From: Labrys monachus
GTDB lineage: Bacteria; Pseudomonadota; Alphaproteobacteria; Rhizobiales; Labraceae
Length of the DNA: 64,000 nt
NCBI RefSeq assembly: GCF_030814655.1
Contig: NZ_JAUSVK010000001.1
Location: 4,843,001 to 4,907,000, forward strand
Direction of reading: 5' to 3'
Under the pieces are notes generated by a model. The model saw nothing but the letters and a program-made list of their open reading frames with translations, had not been told where the DNA came from and did no database searches. The translations under genes were made by a program, and so were the position numbers. Shown in pieces: positions 4,944 through 9,293 of the stretch (positions are counted from its first letter, which is position 1; every line of letters starts with the position of its first letter).

Positions 4944-5396
4944 AGCCGGCAGCTCCGCCTGCTCCACGACGCGGTTCTCGATATCGTGGCGGTCGTCAAC
5001 CGGCCGCAGCGGGACGAGATGCTCATCCGGGAAGCCGGAATCCGGCTCGACCGGGCGCTCTTCCCCCTGCTCGTCGGCATCGAGCGGTTCGGGCCGATCG
5101 GCGTGGTGGATCTGGCCGATCGCGTGGGGCGCGACTACACCACCGTCAGCCGCCAGGTCGCGAAGCTGGAAAGCCTCGGTCTGGTGGAACGACGGGGAAG
5201 CGCCGCCGACCGGCGCGTGCGCGAGGCCGCCATCACCCCGAAAGGCCGGGCGATGACCGACCTCGTCGATGCCGCGCGCGAAAGGATCATCCGCGCCATC
5301 CTCGCGCCATGGGACGCGCGCGACGTCGATGAACTGGTGCGGCTGATGCGGAAGTTCGCCGATGCGGTGAAGGAAGAGCCGCCTGCCGGCTCATAG
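4908..5396 (+). CDS. MarR-family transcriptional regulator
   Basis: This 162-residue protein has a winged helix-turn-helix: IGVVDLADRVGRDYTTVSRQ is the recognition region, followed by the LGLVERRGSAADRR wing typical of MarR. I chose ATG 4908 because GGAG lies six bases upstream; an in-frame ATG at 4878 falls inside the operator and has no ribosome site. The gene is divergent from the MDR oxidoreductase with shared operators. It probably senses a small aromatic or electrophilic ligand, as MarR proteins commonly do, but no ligand can be inferred here. Confidence 0.9.
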   Translation: MPSTNNVQNTHISRQLRLLHDAVLDIVAVVNRPQRDEMLIREAGIRLDRALFPLLVGIERFGPIGVVDLADRVGRDYTTVSRQVAKLESLGLVERRGSAADRRVREAAITPKGRAMTDLVDAARERIIRAILAPWDARDVDELVRLMRKFADAVKEEPPAGS

Positions 5397-5821: not shown

Positions 5822-6574
5822 TCAGATGGCCTCCGCGTCGTCGGGCTCGTCCCGGCCCCGGCGCCTTGTATCGGCAAAATCGTGGAAGCGCTCGCGCAGA
5901 CGCTCCCGCATGCGCGAACGGCGCCGATGCGAGCGTTCCGCCATGCGGCGGAGCGGCGTGAACATCTGGCACAGGTCGTCCGCCCGTTCCATCCAGCGCT
6001 CGCCGGAACGCAATTGCCGGTCGACCTCCTTCATGGTCAGGGCCGAACCTTCGTCCTCGTCCCTCAGCCAGACCCGGACGATGCGCGACCAGGCGAGGGC
6101 GAGGCCCTGCGCGCGCAAGGCGCCGAGCGGCCCCTCGGCCCCGATGCCGGCGGCGACCAGCATCCATTGCATCGAGTTGGTCGCCACCCGGTTCCAGGCG
6201 GCGAGCGCCAGCGGATCGAGCGCGAAGGCCTTGCTGATCTCGCGAATAGCCGCCTTGCGGGGCGAAAGCACGTCGATGCGGCGCATCAGCACGTCGAACA
6301 GGCGCTCGCGGGCCGGCTCCTCGGCCATGGTCTCGTCGATGCCGTCGAGCACCGCCTGGTCGACCTGACGCGAATAGGCCGCGAGGATCGCGCCCTTGGA
6401 GGGGAACAGCCCGCGCAGCTGCGAGAGGGAAAGATCCGCCTTTTCGGCGATATCGGCGAGGCCGATTTCCCCCCAGGGACGCTCCGCCGCCAAGGCGAGA
6501 AGGGCCTCGACGGCCGCCCTGCGCGGATCGGCCTGCGGTTCGCTTTGCAGATCGCTTTGCGGCTTCCTGGCCAT
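5822..6574 (-). CDS. TetR-family transcriptional regulator
   Basis: This 250-residue protein has an N-terminal helix-turn-helix (EIGLADIAEKADLSLSQLRGLF) and a C-terminal helical ligand or dimer domain. It ends in an arginine-rich tail with repeated RRR/RMRERLRERF, which is likely to contact nucleic acid or remain disordered. The start at 6574 has a strong AAGGAGGAT site; the frame extends upstream but the extension is not conserved-looking. It is upstream of csaA in the same orientation. The target and ligand are unknown. Confidence 0.85.
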   Translation of the reverse strand: MARKPQSDLQSEPQADPRRAAVEALLALAAERPWGEIGLADIAEKADLSLSQLRGLFPSKGAILAAYSRQVDQAVLDGIDETMAEEPARERLFDVLMRRIDVLSPRKAAIREISKAFALDPLALAAWNRVATNSMQWMLVAAGIGAEGPLGALRAQGLALAWSRIVRVWLRDEDEGSALTMKEVDRQLRSGERWMERADDLCQMFTPLRRMAERSHRRRSRMRERLRERFHDFADTRRRGRDEPDDAEAI

Positions 6575-6752
6575 GGCGGGATCCTCCTTGCTTGAAACCA
6601 CTGCCATCAAGATAGGCCGTTTGCGGGCGCTATCAATGCCGCATCTGCACGGAGCTGGAGCCGCGGTGGAAATGCGGCTCGGCGTCGCGATGGTCGGGCG
6701 CGTGGCCGCGCTCGCATCGCCCCCCTTGCCTGAAAAAAAGATCCGCCACCGT

Positions 6753-6779
6753 GGAATAAACCCGCCCCTGCGATGTCTA
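6753..6779 (+). promoter_or_regulatory. Putative ECF-sigma promoter upstream of the DUF305 gene
   Basis: GGAATAAA at 6753-6760 is followed after 13 bases by TGTCTA at 6774-6779. The same pair, GGAATAAA then TGTCTC after 12 bases, precedes the COG4315 gene at 8839. A GGAA-type upstream element with a GTCT-type -10 element is the general look of an ECF sigma promoter. The sigma factor itself is not in this window. Confidence 0.55.
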
Positions 6780-6815
6780 CCTCCATGCATCTGCCTCGGA
6801 GCATAAGAGATCAAC

Positions 6816-7292
6816 ATGATACCCTTTCAGCGCAGCATCCATGTTCTGGTGCTGACGTGGATCCTGGCTGTCTGTTCTGCGCAGGCCTTCGCACAGGATG
6901 CCGCCGCCCCTCCGACATCGGCGGAAACACCCTTCCTGCACGAAAACGACGCCGCCATGGCGACGATGATGAACGGCATGGCAGTCAAACCGACCGGCGA
7001 CGTCAATCGCGATTTCGTCGAGATGATGATTCCACACCATCAGGGCGCGATCGACATGGCGCTGGCGTATCTGCGCTACGGCAGCAACGAGCAGCTCAAG
7101 CGCATCGCGCAGGAAATCATCGTCGATCAGCAGCAGGAAATCGCGGCCATGCGGCTCGCCCTCGGCGATCCGCTGCCGGCATCGATCGCCGCTCCGACGC
7201 AGGTCGAGGCCGGCACGTCGAGCGATCCCGGCAGCGGCGAGAACGCCCCGGCCCCGGCCATGCAGATGATGATGATGAAGCCGGGCAAGTAA
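6816..7292 (+). CDS. Secreted DUF305 protein
   Basis: This 158-residue protein has a signal peptide ending near AQAFAQ (about residue 27), then a DUF305 four-helix domain marked by FVEMMIPHHQGAIDMA and IVDQQQEIAAM. Methionine-rich segments stand out (MATMMNGMAVK and a C-terminal MQMMMMK), together with the HH pair. Some DUF305 proteins, such as cyanobacterial CopM, bind copper in the periplasm, so metal binding is a reasonable inference here but is not shown. It is the first gene of an operon with the YVTN protein 14 bp downstream. Confidence 0.88.
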   Translation: MIPFQRSIHVLVLTWILAVCSAQAFAQDAAAPPTSAETPFLHENDAAMATMMNGMAVKPTGDVNRDFVEMMIPHHQGAIDMALAYLRYGSNEQLKRIAQEIIVDQQQEIAAMRLALGDPLPASIAAPTQVEAGTSSDPGSGENAPAPAMQMMMMKPGK

Positions 7293-7306
7293 AAAGGACT
7301 CCTATC

Positions 7307-8761
7307 GTGAAGCATACCTTCCTGTCTCTCTGCCTCCTGGCCGGCACCATGCTGGCGCCGGCAACAAGCTTCGCCGGCCAGGCGCCGGGGCTCGCATCGG
7401 CTCCGGATATCCCGATCAGCCACAGGGACCGCATCTATGCGGCCGAGCAATTCTCCAACACGGTTTCGGTCAGCGACCCCGTCGACAACAGGCTGCTCGG
7501 CGTCATCAAGCTTGGCGACCCGCAGCCGGGGAATCTCAGTCCCCTCTACAAGGGCCAGGTCCTCGTCCACGGCATGGGGTTCTCGCCGGACCACAAGACC
7601 TTGGCCGTCGTATCCATCGGCTCCAACTCGGTGACCTTCATCGATACCGCGACCAACACGGTCAAGCACACCACCTATGTCGGCCGTTCCCCGCACGAAG
7701 CCTTCTTCACGCCGGATGGCAGGGAAGTCTGGGTGACCGTGCGCGGCGAAGACTATATCTCCGTCATCGATGCCGACACCTTCGAGGAGAAGATGCAGAT
7801 CAAGGTGCCGGCGGGGCCCGGCATGCAGATCTTCTCGCCGGACGGCAAATACGGCTACATCTGCTCGTCCTTCAACCCCGAAACCGTCGTCGTCTCGGTT
7901 GCCGACCACAAGATTGTCGGCCATGTGAAGCAGGCCAGTCCCTTCTGCCCGAACATTGCCGCGTCCGCGGACGGCAAGCAGGTCTGGTTCACGCTGAAGG
8001 ATGTCGGCAAGACCCAGGTCTTCAACGGACAGGCGCCCTTCGATCTGGTCAAGACGCTCGACACCGGCCCGATCACCAACCACGTCAATCTCGTCATGAA
8101 CAGGAACGGCAGCTTCGCCTATGTGACGGTCGGCGGCCTGAACGAGGTAAAGGTGTTCCGAACCGACGATTTCGAACAGGTGGCGACGATTCCCGTCGGC
8201 AATCTCCCGCATGGCATCTGGCCGTCGGGCGACGGGACCCGGGTGTATGTCGGCCTCGAAAACGCCGACCGGTTCGCGGTCATCGACACGCTCACCAACA
8301 AGGTGATTGGCGACATCCCGATCGGCCAGGCGCCGCAAGCGGTCGCCTATGTCCCGAACGCGGTTCCCGAAGGCGACGGCAGGCAGAACCTGGTGCCGCT
8401 CGGCACGGCCGGCGAGGCTGCGCATCTCAAACTCGCCGCCAAGGGGGCAAGCGGCAGGTCCGCGCCGACAAGCGTAACGCTGTTCGACCAGGGTCTTACC
8501 CAGGTGCTTCAGGCCGCCGTCACCGGCCTCGAACCAAAGAAGCCTTACGTTCTGGCTCTCTCCGACAAGCCGGATGGAAGCGGACGGCTGCAATTGCTCT
8601 CGACCTTCATGACGAACCCGGCCGGCTCGGCGATCGTCAATGCCGTCGGTCCCATCCGCCAGATCGTGGAATCGAAGCACGAGGACGAGAAGCGCTATCT
8701 GGTCGTCGCAGCTTCGACAGACGGAAAGCCCGGCGCGATCGTGCAGTTTCAGGCCGAGTAG
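7307..8761 (+). CDS. Secreted YVTN/YncE-like beta-propeller protein
   Basis: This 484-residue protein starts with GTG, with AAGGA eight bases upstream. A signal peptide ends near TSFAGQ (about residue 24). It contains repeated blades of the YncE type (SNTVSVSDPVDNRLLGVIKLG, FIDTATNTVKHT, FAVIDTLTNKVIGDIPIG), giving a seven-bladed propeller of roughly 340 residues. A C-terminal domain of about 120 residues follows. It is co-transcribed with the DUF305 gene and followed by a strong terminator. Such proteins are periplasmic or cell-surface binders; the ligand is unknown. Confidence 0.85.
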   Translation: MKHTFLSLCLLAGTMLAPATSFAGQAPGLASAPDIPISHRDRIYAAEQFSNTVSVSDPVDNRLLGVIKLGDPQPGNLSPLYKGQVLVHGMGFSPDHKTLAVVSIGSNSVTFIDTATNTVKHTTYVGRSPHEAFFTPDGREVWVTVRGEDYISVIDADTFEEKMQIKVPAGPGMQIFSPDGKYGYICSSFNPETVVVSVADHKIVGHVKQASPFCPNIAASADGKQVWFTLKDVGKTQVFNGQAPFDLVKTLDTGPITNHVNLVMNRNGSFAYVTVGGLNEVKVFRTDDFEQVATIPVGNLPHGIWPSGDGTRVYVGLENADRFAVIDTLTNKVIGDIPIGQAPQAVAYVPNAVPEGDGRQNLVPLGTAGEAAHLKLAAKGASGRSAPTSVTLFDQGLTQVLQAAVTGLEPKKPYVLALSDKPDGSGRLQLLSTFMTNPAGSAIVNAVGPIRQIVESKHEDEKRYLVVAASTDGKPGAIVQFQAE

Positions 8762-8772
8762 GTCGCCGGTGC

Positions 8773-8800
8773 GGCCGCCTGCAGCAGGCGGCCCTTTTTT
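8773..8800 (+). terminator. Rho-independent terminator of the DUF305-YVTN operon
   Basis: GGCCGCCTG (8773-8781), a three-base loop and CAGGCGGCC (8785-8793) form a perfect nine-pair stem, followed by C and six T (8795-8800). It begins 12 bases after the YVTN stop codon. Confidence 0.9.
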
Positions 8801-8838
8801 CACGCATCAGAAGCCTTGCCGAAACGGACATTCCGACG

Positions 8839-8864
8839 GGAATAAAGACCCCTGGACGTGTCTC
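8839..8864 (+). promoter_or_regulatory. Putative ECF-sigma promoter upstream of the COG4315 gene
   Basis: GGAATAAA (8839-8846), 12 bases, then TGTCTC (8859-8864). It matches the motif at 6753 and lies after the terminator of the preceding operon, so the downstream gene probably has its own promoter answering to the same sigma factor. Confidence 0.55.
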
Positions 8865-8912
8865 GTGATCGGTATCGCAAATGCACATGCCCGAACCCGC
8901 AGGAGAGACGTT

Positions 8913-9293
8913 GTGACGTCCTTGAAATTCATATCCGTATTGGCGGCGATTGCCGCGACCACCACCGTCGCTTTCGCTGCCTCTTCCGTTGCGACCGTCG
9001 ATACCGCGAAAGGCCAGGTTCTGGCGGGCGACAACGGCATGACCCTCTACACCTTCAAGAAAGATGCCGCGGACGTTTCCAACTGCTACGACAAATGTGC
9101 GGCGAATTGGCCGCCCTTCATCGCCAAAGCCGACGCCGTGGCCGGCGGTGCCTATTCGATCGTCACGCGCAAGGACGGCGGCAGGCAATGGGCCAAGGAC
9201 GGCAAGCCGCTCTACTATTGGGTCAAGGACAGTCGGAAGGGCGATATCACCGGCGACGGCGTGATGGGCGTGTGGGATCTCGCGCGGCCCTGA
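8913..9293 (+). CDS. Secreted COG4315-family repeat protein
   Basis: This 126-residue protein has a signal peptide (LKFISVLAAIAATTTVAFAA) and two copies of the family's Y-x-[FWY]-x-x-D motif, LYTFKKD and LYYWVKD. A CYDKCAANWPPF cysteine pair lies between them. Proteins of this family are secreted, and some are annotated as lipoproteins; no lipobox is seen here. The GTG start at 8913 has AGGAG seven bases upstream. The matching promoter motif ties it to the DUF305-YVTN operon. The function is unknown. Confidence 0.85.
   Translation: MTSLKFISVLAAIAATTTVAFAASSVATVDTAKGQVLAGDNGMTLYTFKKDAADVSNCYDKCAANWPPFIAKADAVAGGAYSIVTRKDGGRQWAKDGKPLYYWVKDSRKGDITGDGVMGVWDLARP

Follow-up and report, generated by a model that had tools for sequence, protein, structure and literature searches.

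The window, the whole 64-kb stretch of DNA analysed here, occupies G000:C1:4843001-4907000 of the Labrys monachus genome, which consists of one contig of 6.92 Mb. It contains a DUF305-YVTN operon and, behind a terminator-like hairpin, a COG4315 gene, each unit preceded by a candidate promoter.

6753-6778, plus strand: candidate ECF26-type promoter of the DUF305-YVTN operon, GGAATA-N16-GTCT, found by motif search and kept upstream of DUF305 in relatives
6816-7292, plus strand: DUF305 protein, Met-rich with an HH pair, CopM-like; PF03713, E 5.1e-18; signal sequence by eye
7307-8761, plus strand: YVTN protein, GTG start; predicted seven-bladed beta-propeller and SOD-like C-terminal domain
8773-8800, plus strand: intrinsic-terminator-like hairpin with T6, separating the DUF305-YVTN operon from the COG4315 gene
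8839-8863, plus strand: candidate ECF26-type promoter of the COG4315 gene, GGAATA-N15-GTCT, found by motif search
8913-9293, plus strand: Lipoprotein_15 (COG4315) protein, GTG start; PF03640, E 9.8e-31, two stretches; signal sequence by eye

The DUF305 protein passed the PF03713 cut-off (66 bits versus 27) and the Lipoprotein_15 protein that of PF03640 (105.4 bits versus 24.4), the two stretches of the latter corresponding to a repeated motif. Export of the DUF305, YVTN and Lipoprotein_15 products was judged by eye from their N-terminal sequences. The initial annotation had described the DUF305 protein as Met-rich with an HH pair, and both traits are conserved: the pair (H74-H75) and seven Met residues besides the start are invariant in 25/25 aligned sequences. 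The protein scored 80.2 bits against the CopM model NF049983, under its cut-off of 90, and matched the CopM entry 5fej of the PDB with E 1.4e-15. As described in PMC4335983, CopM of Synechocystis (PDB 5fej) shares the DUF305 domain, the HH motif, the Met richness and export (judged by eye in Labrys), but it has two DUF305 domains where the Labrys protein has one, and there the control is by the CopRS two-component system.

A terminator between the two units had also been proposed, and a hairpin of nine pairs, eight of them G-C, is present at 8773-8793, followed by T6; folded as RNA, the terminator-like stretch surpasses shuffles by a modest margin only (z -1.49). A TetR-like regulator gene with a weak KstR match lies on the minus strand at 5822-6817, divergent to the DUF305 operon.

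The promoter-like motif in the window and the genome

The claim that one motif precedes the DUF305 operon and recurs before the COG4315 gene was borne out by pattern searches. GGAATAAA-N{12,13}-TGTCT[AC] has exactly two matches in the 64-kb window, at 6753-6779(+) and 8839-8864(+), and none in dinucleotide shuffles of the window (n=100). The distance from GTCT to the start codon is 37 nt for the DUF305 ATG and 49 nt for the COG4315 GTG. The two spacers are unequal, N16 before DUF305 and N15 before COG4315, and this difference matters because 54 of the 55 motif-bearing relatives described below have a spacer of 16 before DUF305.

Searched over the 6.92-Mb genome, the looser pattern GGAATAA-N{12,16}-TGTCT occurs three times, two of these being the window sites. 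GGAATA-N15/16-GTC[TC] gave 27 genome sites versus 8 for the reversed pattern. GGAATAA is present in 4/27, and all four precede genes, namely those for the DUF305 protein, the COG4315 protein, an ECF sigma factor and a catalase-like peroxidase. Among the other 23 sites, 18 fall within likely coding sequence as judged by a rough caller, which also put both window sites inside spurious ORFs. GGAATAA with other spacers at L033 (N18), L034 (N17) and L037 (N18) was not counted among the members. The same applies to a minus-strand site at L003 1501-1528 (G000:C1:5853094-5853121), in which an 18-base spacer separates GGAATAA from GTCT directly 5' of an epimerase-like gene.

At G000:C1:1628716 on the minus strand (L032 6683-4984), genes for the catalase-like peroxidase and a cytochrome b561 lie behind GGAATAAGCCGCGCCGCCCGTCGTCT. 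This motif is 9 nt from the first ATG and about 33 nt from a later in-frame ATG. The operon is probably the fourth target of an RpoE1-like sigma factor of this genome.

Across 150 genomes of the order, GGAATAAA-N{13,14}-GTCT matched in 40, and the reversed-pattern control also matched many, so that this pattern by itself is not enough to locate the regulon; judged by eye, the loose exact pattern is not enriched over that control. Together with the background-like appearance of 23 of the 27 loose sites in the Labrys genome, most of them in likely coding sequence by the rough caller, this would fit a second window site that arose as a chance match to a motif that is no shared promoter. We regard this as very improbable given the empty window shuffles, the strong conservation of the motif upstream of DUF305 in relatives and the reported activity of the same promoter type (PMC6180224, PMC6527743).

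Gene order in relatives and a sigma/anti-sigma pair outside the window

Relatives comprised 80 named loci from one scan with the YVTN protein. Homologs of the Labrys monachus ECF sigma factor and anti-sigma factor described below lie directly 3' of the YVTN gene in 60/80 loci and elsewhere in the locus in 3/80; in 16/80 they were not found within the locus, and 1/80 ends at a contig end. DUF305 is present in 78/80. After four of the 80 loci had been left out, with DUF305 either not found or too near a contig end, 55 of the 76 loci with enough sequence had GGAATA-N15-17-GTC[TC] no more than 300 bp upstream of the DUF305 match. Shuffles gave a mean of 0.07 and a maximum of 1/76, and other 300-bp windows gave 23/5992. 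On the opposite strand of the same upstream stretches the motif occurred in 5/76, which fits divergent genes there with their own motif. It was absent from the examined stretch in 21/76 relatives, seven of which have the operon.

The order DUF305-YVTN-sigma-anti-sigma was found in five Ancylobacter loci (L099, L103, L104, L122 and L134); Ancylobacter novellus is the current name of Starkeya novella. The sigma/anti-sigma pair has stayed in the operon in Labrys sp. WJW (L073) and in Labrys sp. KNU-23 (L078), and in Neorhizobium petrolearium (L069) a COG4315 gene with its own motif follows DUF305-YVTN-sigma-anti-sigma. The 150 genomes searched include three of other Labrys, and no COG4315 gene was found in any of these; the gene may have been acquired in Labrys monachus. 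Beside the DUF305 operon of the five Ancylobacter loci, near 5300, a gene for an NTF2-like exported protein lies divergently behind the same motif; such a divergent NTF2-like gene behind the motif also occurs in L059, L062 and L063.

A genome search for a sigma/anti-sigma pair with the same motif, which the initial annotation had proposed, located one at G000:C1:4952051-4953384, outside the window and about 103 kb from the DUF305-YVTN and COG4315 units. Its sigma factor, of the ECF type and 175 aa long (4952860-4953384, minus strand), gave the best Sigma70_r4_2 match in the genome; the sigma gene has its own GGAATAA motif 38 nt 5' of the ATG and is directly followed by an anti-sigma gene (4952051-4952860, minus strand) with a membrane span seen by eye. 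This anti-sigma factor is 48-59% identical to the anti-sigma factors within the relatives' operons. In a tree of 104 sigma sequences (107 before three duplicates were removed), the Labrys sigma factor falls in a clade of 64 (100/95), and every one of the other 63 members is from a locus with a YVTN gene.

The identical boxes at both units and the motif-bearing pair agree with the early suggestion of one ECF-like response common to both, and as a reading of these sequences a single response for the DUF305-YVTN and COG4315 units is well supported. A split, with DUF305-YVTN under the RpoE1-like sigma factor and COG4315 under another ECF sigma factor of the genome, would accommodate the spacers of 16 and 15. 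COG4315 genes elsewhere in the order are also often followed by ECF sigma factors, many of them of other clades, and the COG4315 gene, not found in three genomes of other Labrys, may have another history. However, both boxes have the same letters at both sites, the RpoE1-like pair is without another close homolog in the genome (the next ECF sigma factor is 41% identical to it), and in L069 the motif-bearing COG4315 gene adjoins the DUF305-YVTN-sigma operon. We consider such divided control unlikely and retain the single response.

The YVTN and sigma trees are in conflict for the Labrys monachus genome. In a quick tree of 51 rows, its YVTN protein groups as sister with the YVTN proteins of Labrys WJW and KNU-23 (SH-aLRT 91), whereas the nearest relatives of its sigma factor are not the sigma factors of other Labrys. 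Forcing the three Labrys sigma factors together gave an AU p of 0.042, a borderline value for a clade named after the tree had been seen. The likeliest history is that the original sigma/anti-sigma pair was lost in Labrys monachus and that a same-clade pair serves instead. A mere move of the sigma gene out of the operon is somewhat less likely: the YVTN protein and the sigma factor group differently, with the AU test borderline. The Labrys layout is a case of a regulator moved or exchanged.

Regulon assignment and candidate inducing signals

The units of the window very probably belong to an RpoE1-type (ECF26) sigma-factor regulon with dispersed genes in Labrys, the ECF26 label for the Labrys sigma factor resting on papers about Sinorhizobium meliloti (PMC3511301, PMC6180224) and not on ECF classification models. 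This assignment draws on sequence, motif statistics, the sigma clade and the relatives' gene order from the present analysis, and on published work for promoter activation by RpoE1. What began as a guess from raw sequence becomes a defined regulon of four candidate promoters and one sigma/anti-sigma pair. The earlier description of the response as not yet named does not hold: the RpoE1/ECF26 regulon described for S. meliloti and A. (Starkeya) novellus is its match, and published counterparts exist for both target types of the window.

For A. novellus, Tan et al. (2019) reported activation of the Sn_duf305 promoter by SnRpoE1 as well as by SmRpoE1; Snov_0991, located 12 bp downstream of Sn_duf305, is the YVTN protein gene, with high expression on tetrathionate, and Snov_0992/0993 encode RpoE1 and its anti-sigma factor (PMC6527743). 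This Snov_0990-0993 circuit shares with Labrys the succession of DUF305 and YVTN, activated there by RpoE1 (PMC6527743), but its sigma and anti-sigma genes come next in the operon and are not at a distance of about 103 kb, and in Labrys it is COG4315 that adjoins YVTN.

For S. meliloti, Bastiat et al. (2012) described RpoE1 and RpoE4 as ECF26 and inferred sulfite to be their signal; the first gene of the rpoE1 operon is SMc01418, which has Lipoprotein_15 motifs (PMC3511301). The promoter of SMc01418, given as mapped in a 2018 paper with the sequence GGAATAAATCCATAGCCCTCCGTGTCT, was RpoE1-dependent (PMC6180224), and the RpoE1 motif given in 2013 is GAAT-N18-GTCT (PMC3616915). The SMc01418-rpoE1-ecfR1 operon thus offers a Lipoprotein_15 gene behind GGAATAAA...GTGTCT that is RpoE1-dependent in its own host (PMC3511301, PMC6180224). 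It differs from the Labrys arrangement in its N17 spacer, compared with N15, in having the sigma gene downstream instead of distant, and in that DUF305-YVTN lies outside it. The spacings of 15 and 16 found here fall within the published RpoE1-type range, versus 17 (N18 after GAAT) in S. meliloti. The RpoE4/SigE sulfite-oxidase circuit of S. meliloti and A. novellus shares the promoter consensus GGAAT / CGTC (PMC6527743), but in Labrys no sulfite dehydrogenase gene was found under the motif in the genome.

Since the S. meliloti promoters were not read by S. novella sigma factors in the assay published in PMC6527743, resemblance of motifs is no proof that one and the same sigma factor reads them. 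The COG4315 spacer of 15, the 21/76 relatives without the motif, the missing sulfite dehydrogenase target and the discordant trees were likewise counted against the regulon assignment. The regulon is of a known kind with an unusual gene layout in Labrys: the DUF305-YVTN and Lipoprotein_15 target types, known apart from two bacteria, adjoin here without a sigma gene. A literature search found one paper joining DUF305 with YVTN and ECF, but none joining COG4315 with an ECF sigma factor or with DUF305, or GGAATAAA with ECF, a result that describes this search and makes no wider claim of absence from print.

In the proposed mechanism, the membrane anti-sigma factor would hold the sigma factor until a periplasmic sulfur or redox signal releases it. 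The free sigma factor would then read the GGAATAA-N15/16-GTC[TC] promoters of its own operon, of DUF305-YVTN and of COG4315, and probably also that of the catalase-like peroxidase/cytochrome b561 operon. The products may be periplasmic proteins that buffer copper or oxidants. In most relatives the sigma and anti-sigma genes are the third and fourth genes of the DUF305-YVTN operon; in Labrys monachus they are missing there, and a same-clade pair is located elsewhere.

The genes near the operon in relatives, with names read from the sequences and not from a family search, bear on the nature of this signal. CopC-like genes occur in 9/80 loci (6/9 with the motif), an NTF2-like protein in 5/80 (5/5 with the motif), SorA-like genes in 6/80 (one with the motif), MsrP-like genes in 6/80 (one with the motif) and MsrB in 1/80, with the motif; weak cross-matches occur between the SorA and MsrP queries. 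The Labrys genome contains two PF00174 proteins, by eye one MsrP-like and one other oxidoreductase, and the motif is absent within about 1.5 kb around each. Considered along with the catalase-like peroxidase and the CopM-like DUF305 protein, these neighbouring genes suggest a role in periplasmic copper and oxidant care, but the inducers shown so far are sulfur compounds. The copper link of the regulon, from the CopM resemblance and the CopC-like genes, is circumstantial.

It is possible, though less likely than not, that the same sigma circuit is triggered by copper, hypochlorite or another periplasmic oxidant and not by sulfite or tetrathionate. The resemblance of DUF305 to the Cu(I)-binding CopM, the motif at CopC-like, MsrB and (in one of six cases) MsrP-like genes, the motif-bearing peroxidase operon and the lack of a sulfite dehydrogenase found under the motif in Labrys all point in this direction. 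On the other hand, taurine, thiosulfate and tetrathionate are the compounds shown to induce this type of sigma factor (PMC3511301, PMC6527743), and CopC-like genes are found in few of the neighbourhoods.

Predicted structure of the YVTN protein

The YVTN protein shows 73-86% identity to 25 aligned sequences, and H88, H130, H259, H302, C186 and C214 are invariant in 26/26. Its predicted model (pLDDT 79) contains a seven-bladed propeller at about residues 38-356. The model matched 1l0q (Z 39.2, 2.0 A over 308), nitrous oxide reductases (Z 35-36, 2.2-2.6 A over 307-312 residues) and thiocyanate dehydrogenase (Z 31.5, 2.6 A over 306). Since propellers of the lactonase and WD types reach scores above 30 as well, no function follows from the fold by itself. 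Against L-NosZ (NF052460) the protein scored 63.7 bits versus a cut-off of 700, with only the propeller fold in common, and a PDB profile search returned partial matches only, with thiocyanate dehydrogenase at E 0.016.

The C-terminal domain (about residues 366-484, window about 8402-8758) was modelled alone with pLDDT 74 and matched the Cu,Zn-SOD barrel with Z 10.2-11.1 (2.2-2.7 A, about 100 residues). All 50 matches listed have the SOD fold, the best Foldseek E was 1.5e-3, and the domain matched no family in Pfam. The metal ligands of Cu,Zn superoxide dismutase are six His and one Asp. This ligand set is absent from the C-terminal domain, in which the only near-invariant His is H373 (24/26).

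A literature search found no paper joining thiocyanate dehydrogenase, nitrous oxide reductase, propeller and histidine. Taken jointly, these models allow a speculative reading that we consider quite unlikely, in which the YVTN protein would be an undescribed periplasmic copper-sulfur protein, its propeller of the nitrous oxide reductase/thiocyanate dehydrogenase fold, with the six invariant His and Cys residues, being fused to a metal-free SOD-like domain. Copper would come from the CopM-like operon partner, and the protein would detoxify or sense the oxidised sulfur species that fire the sigma factor; the original sigma/anti-sigma pair would have given way to a foreign one from the same clade, with which the promoters are still compatible. 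The predicted fold of this strongly conserved protein may suggest what to assay.
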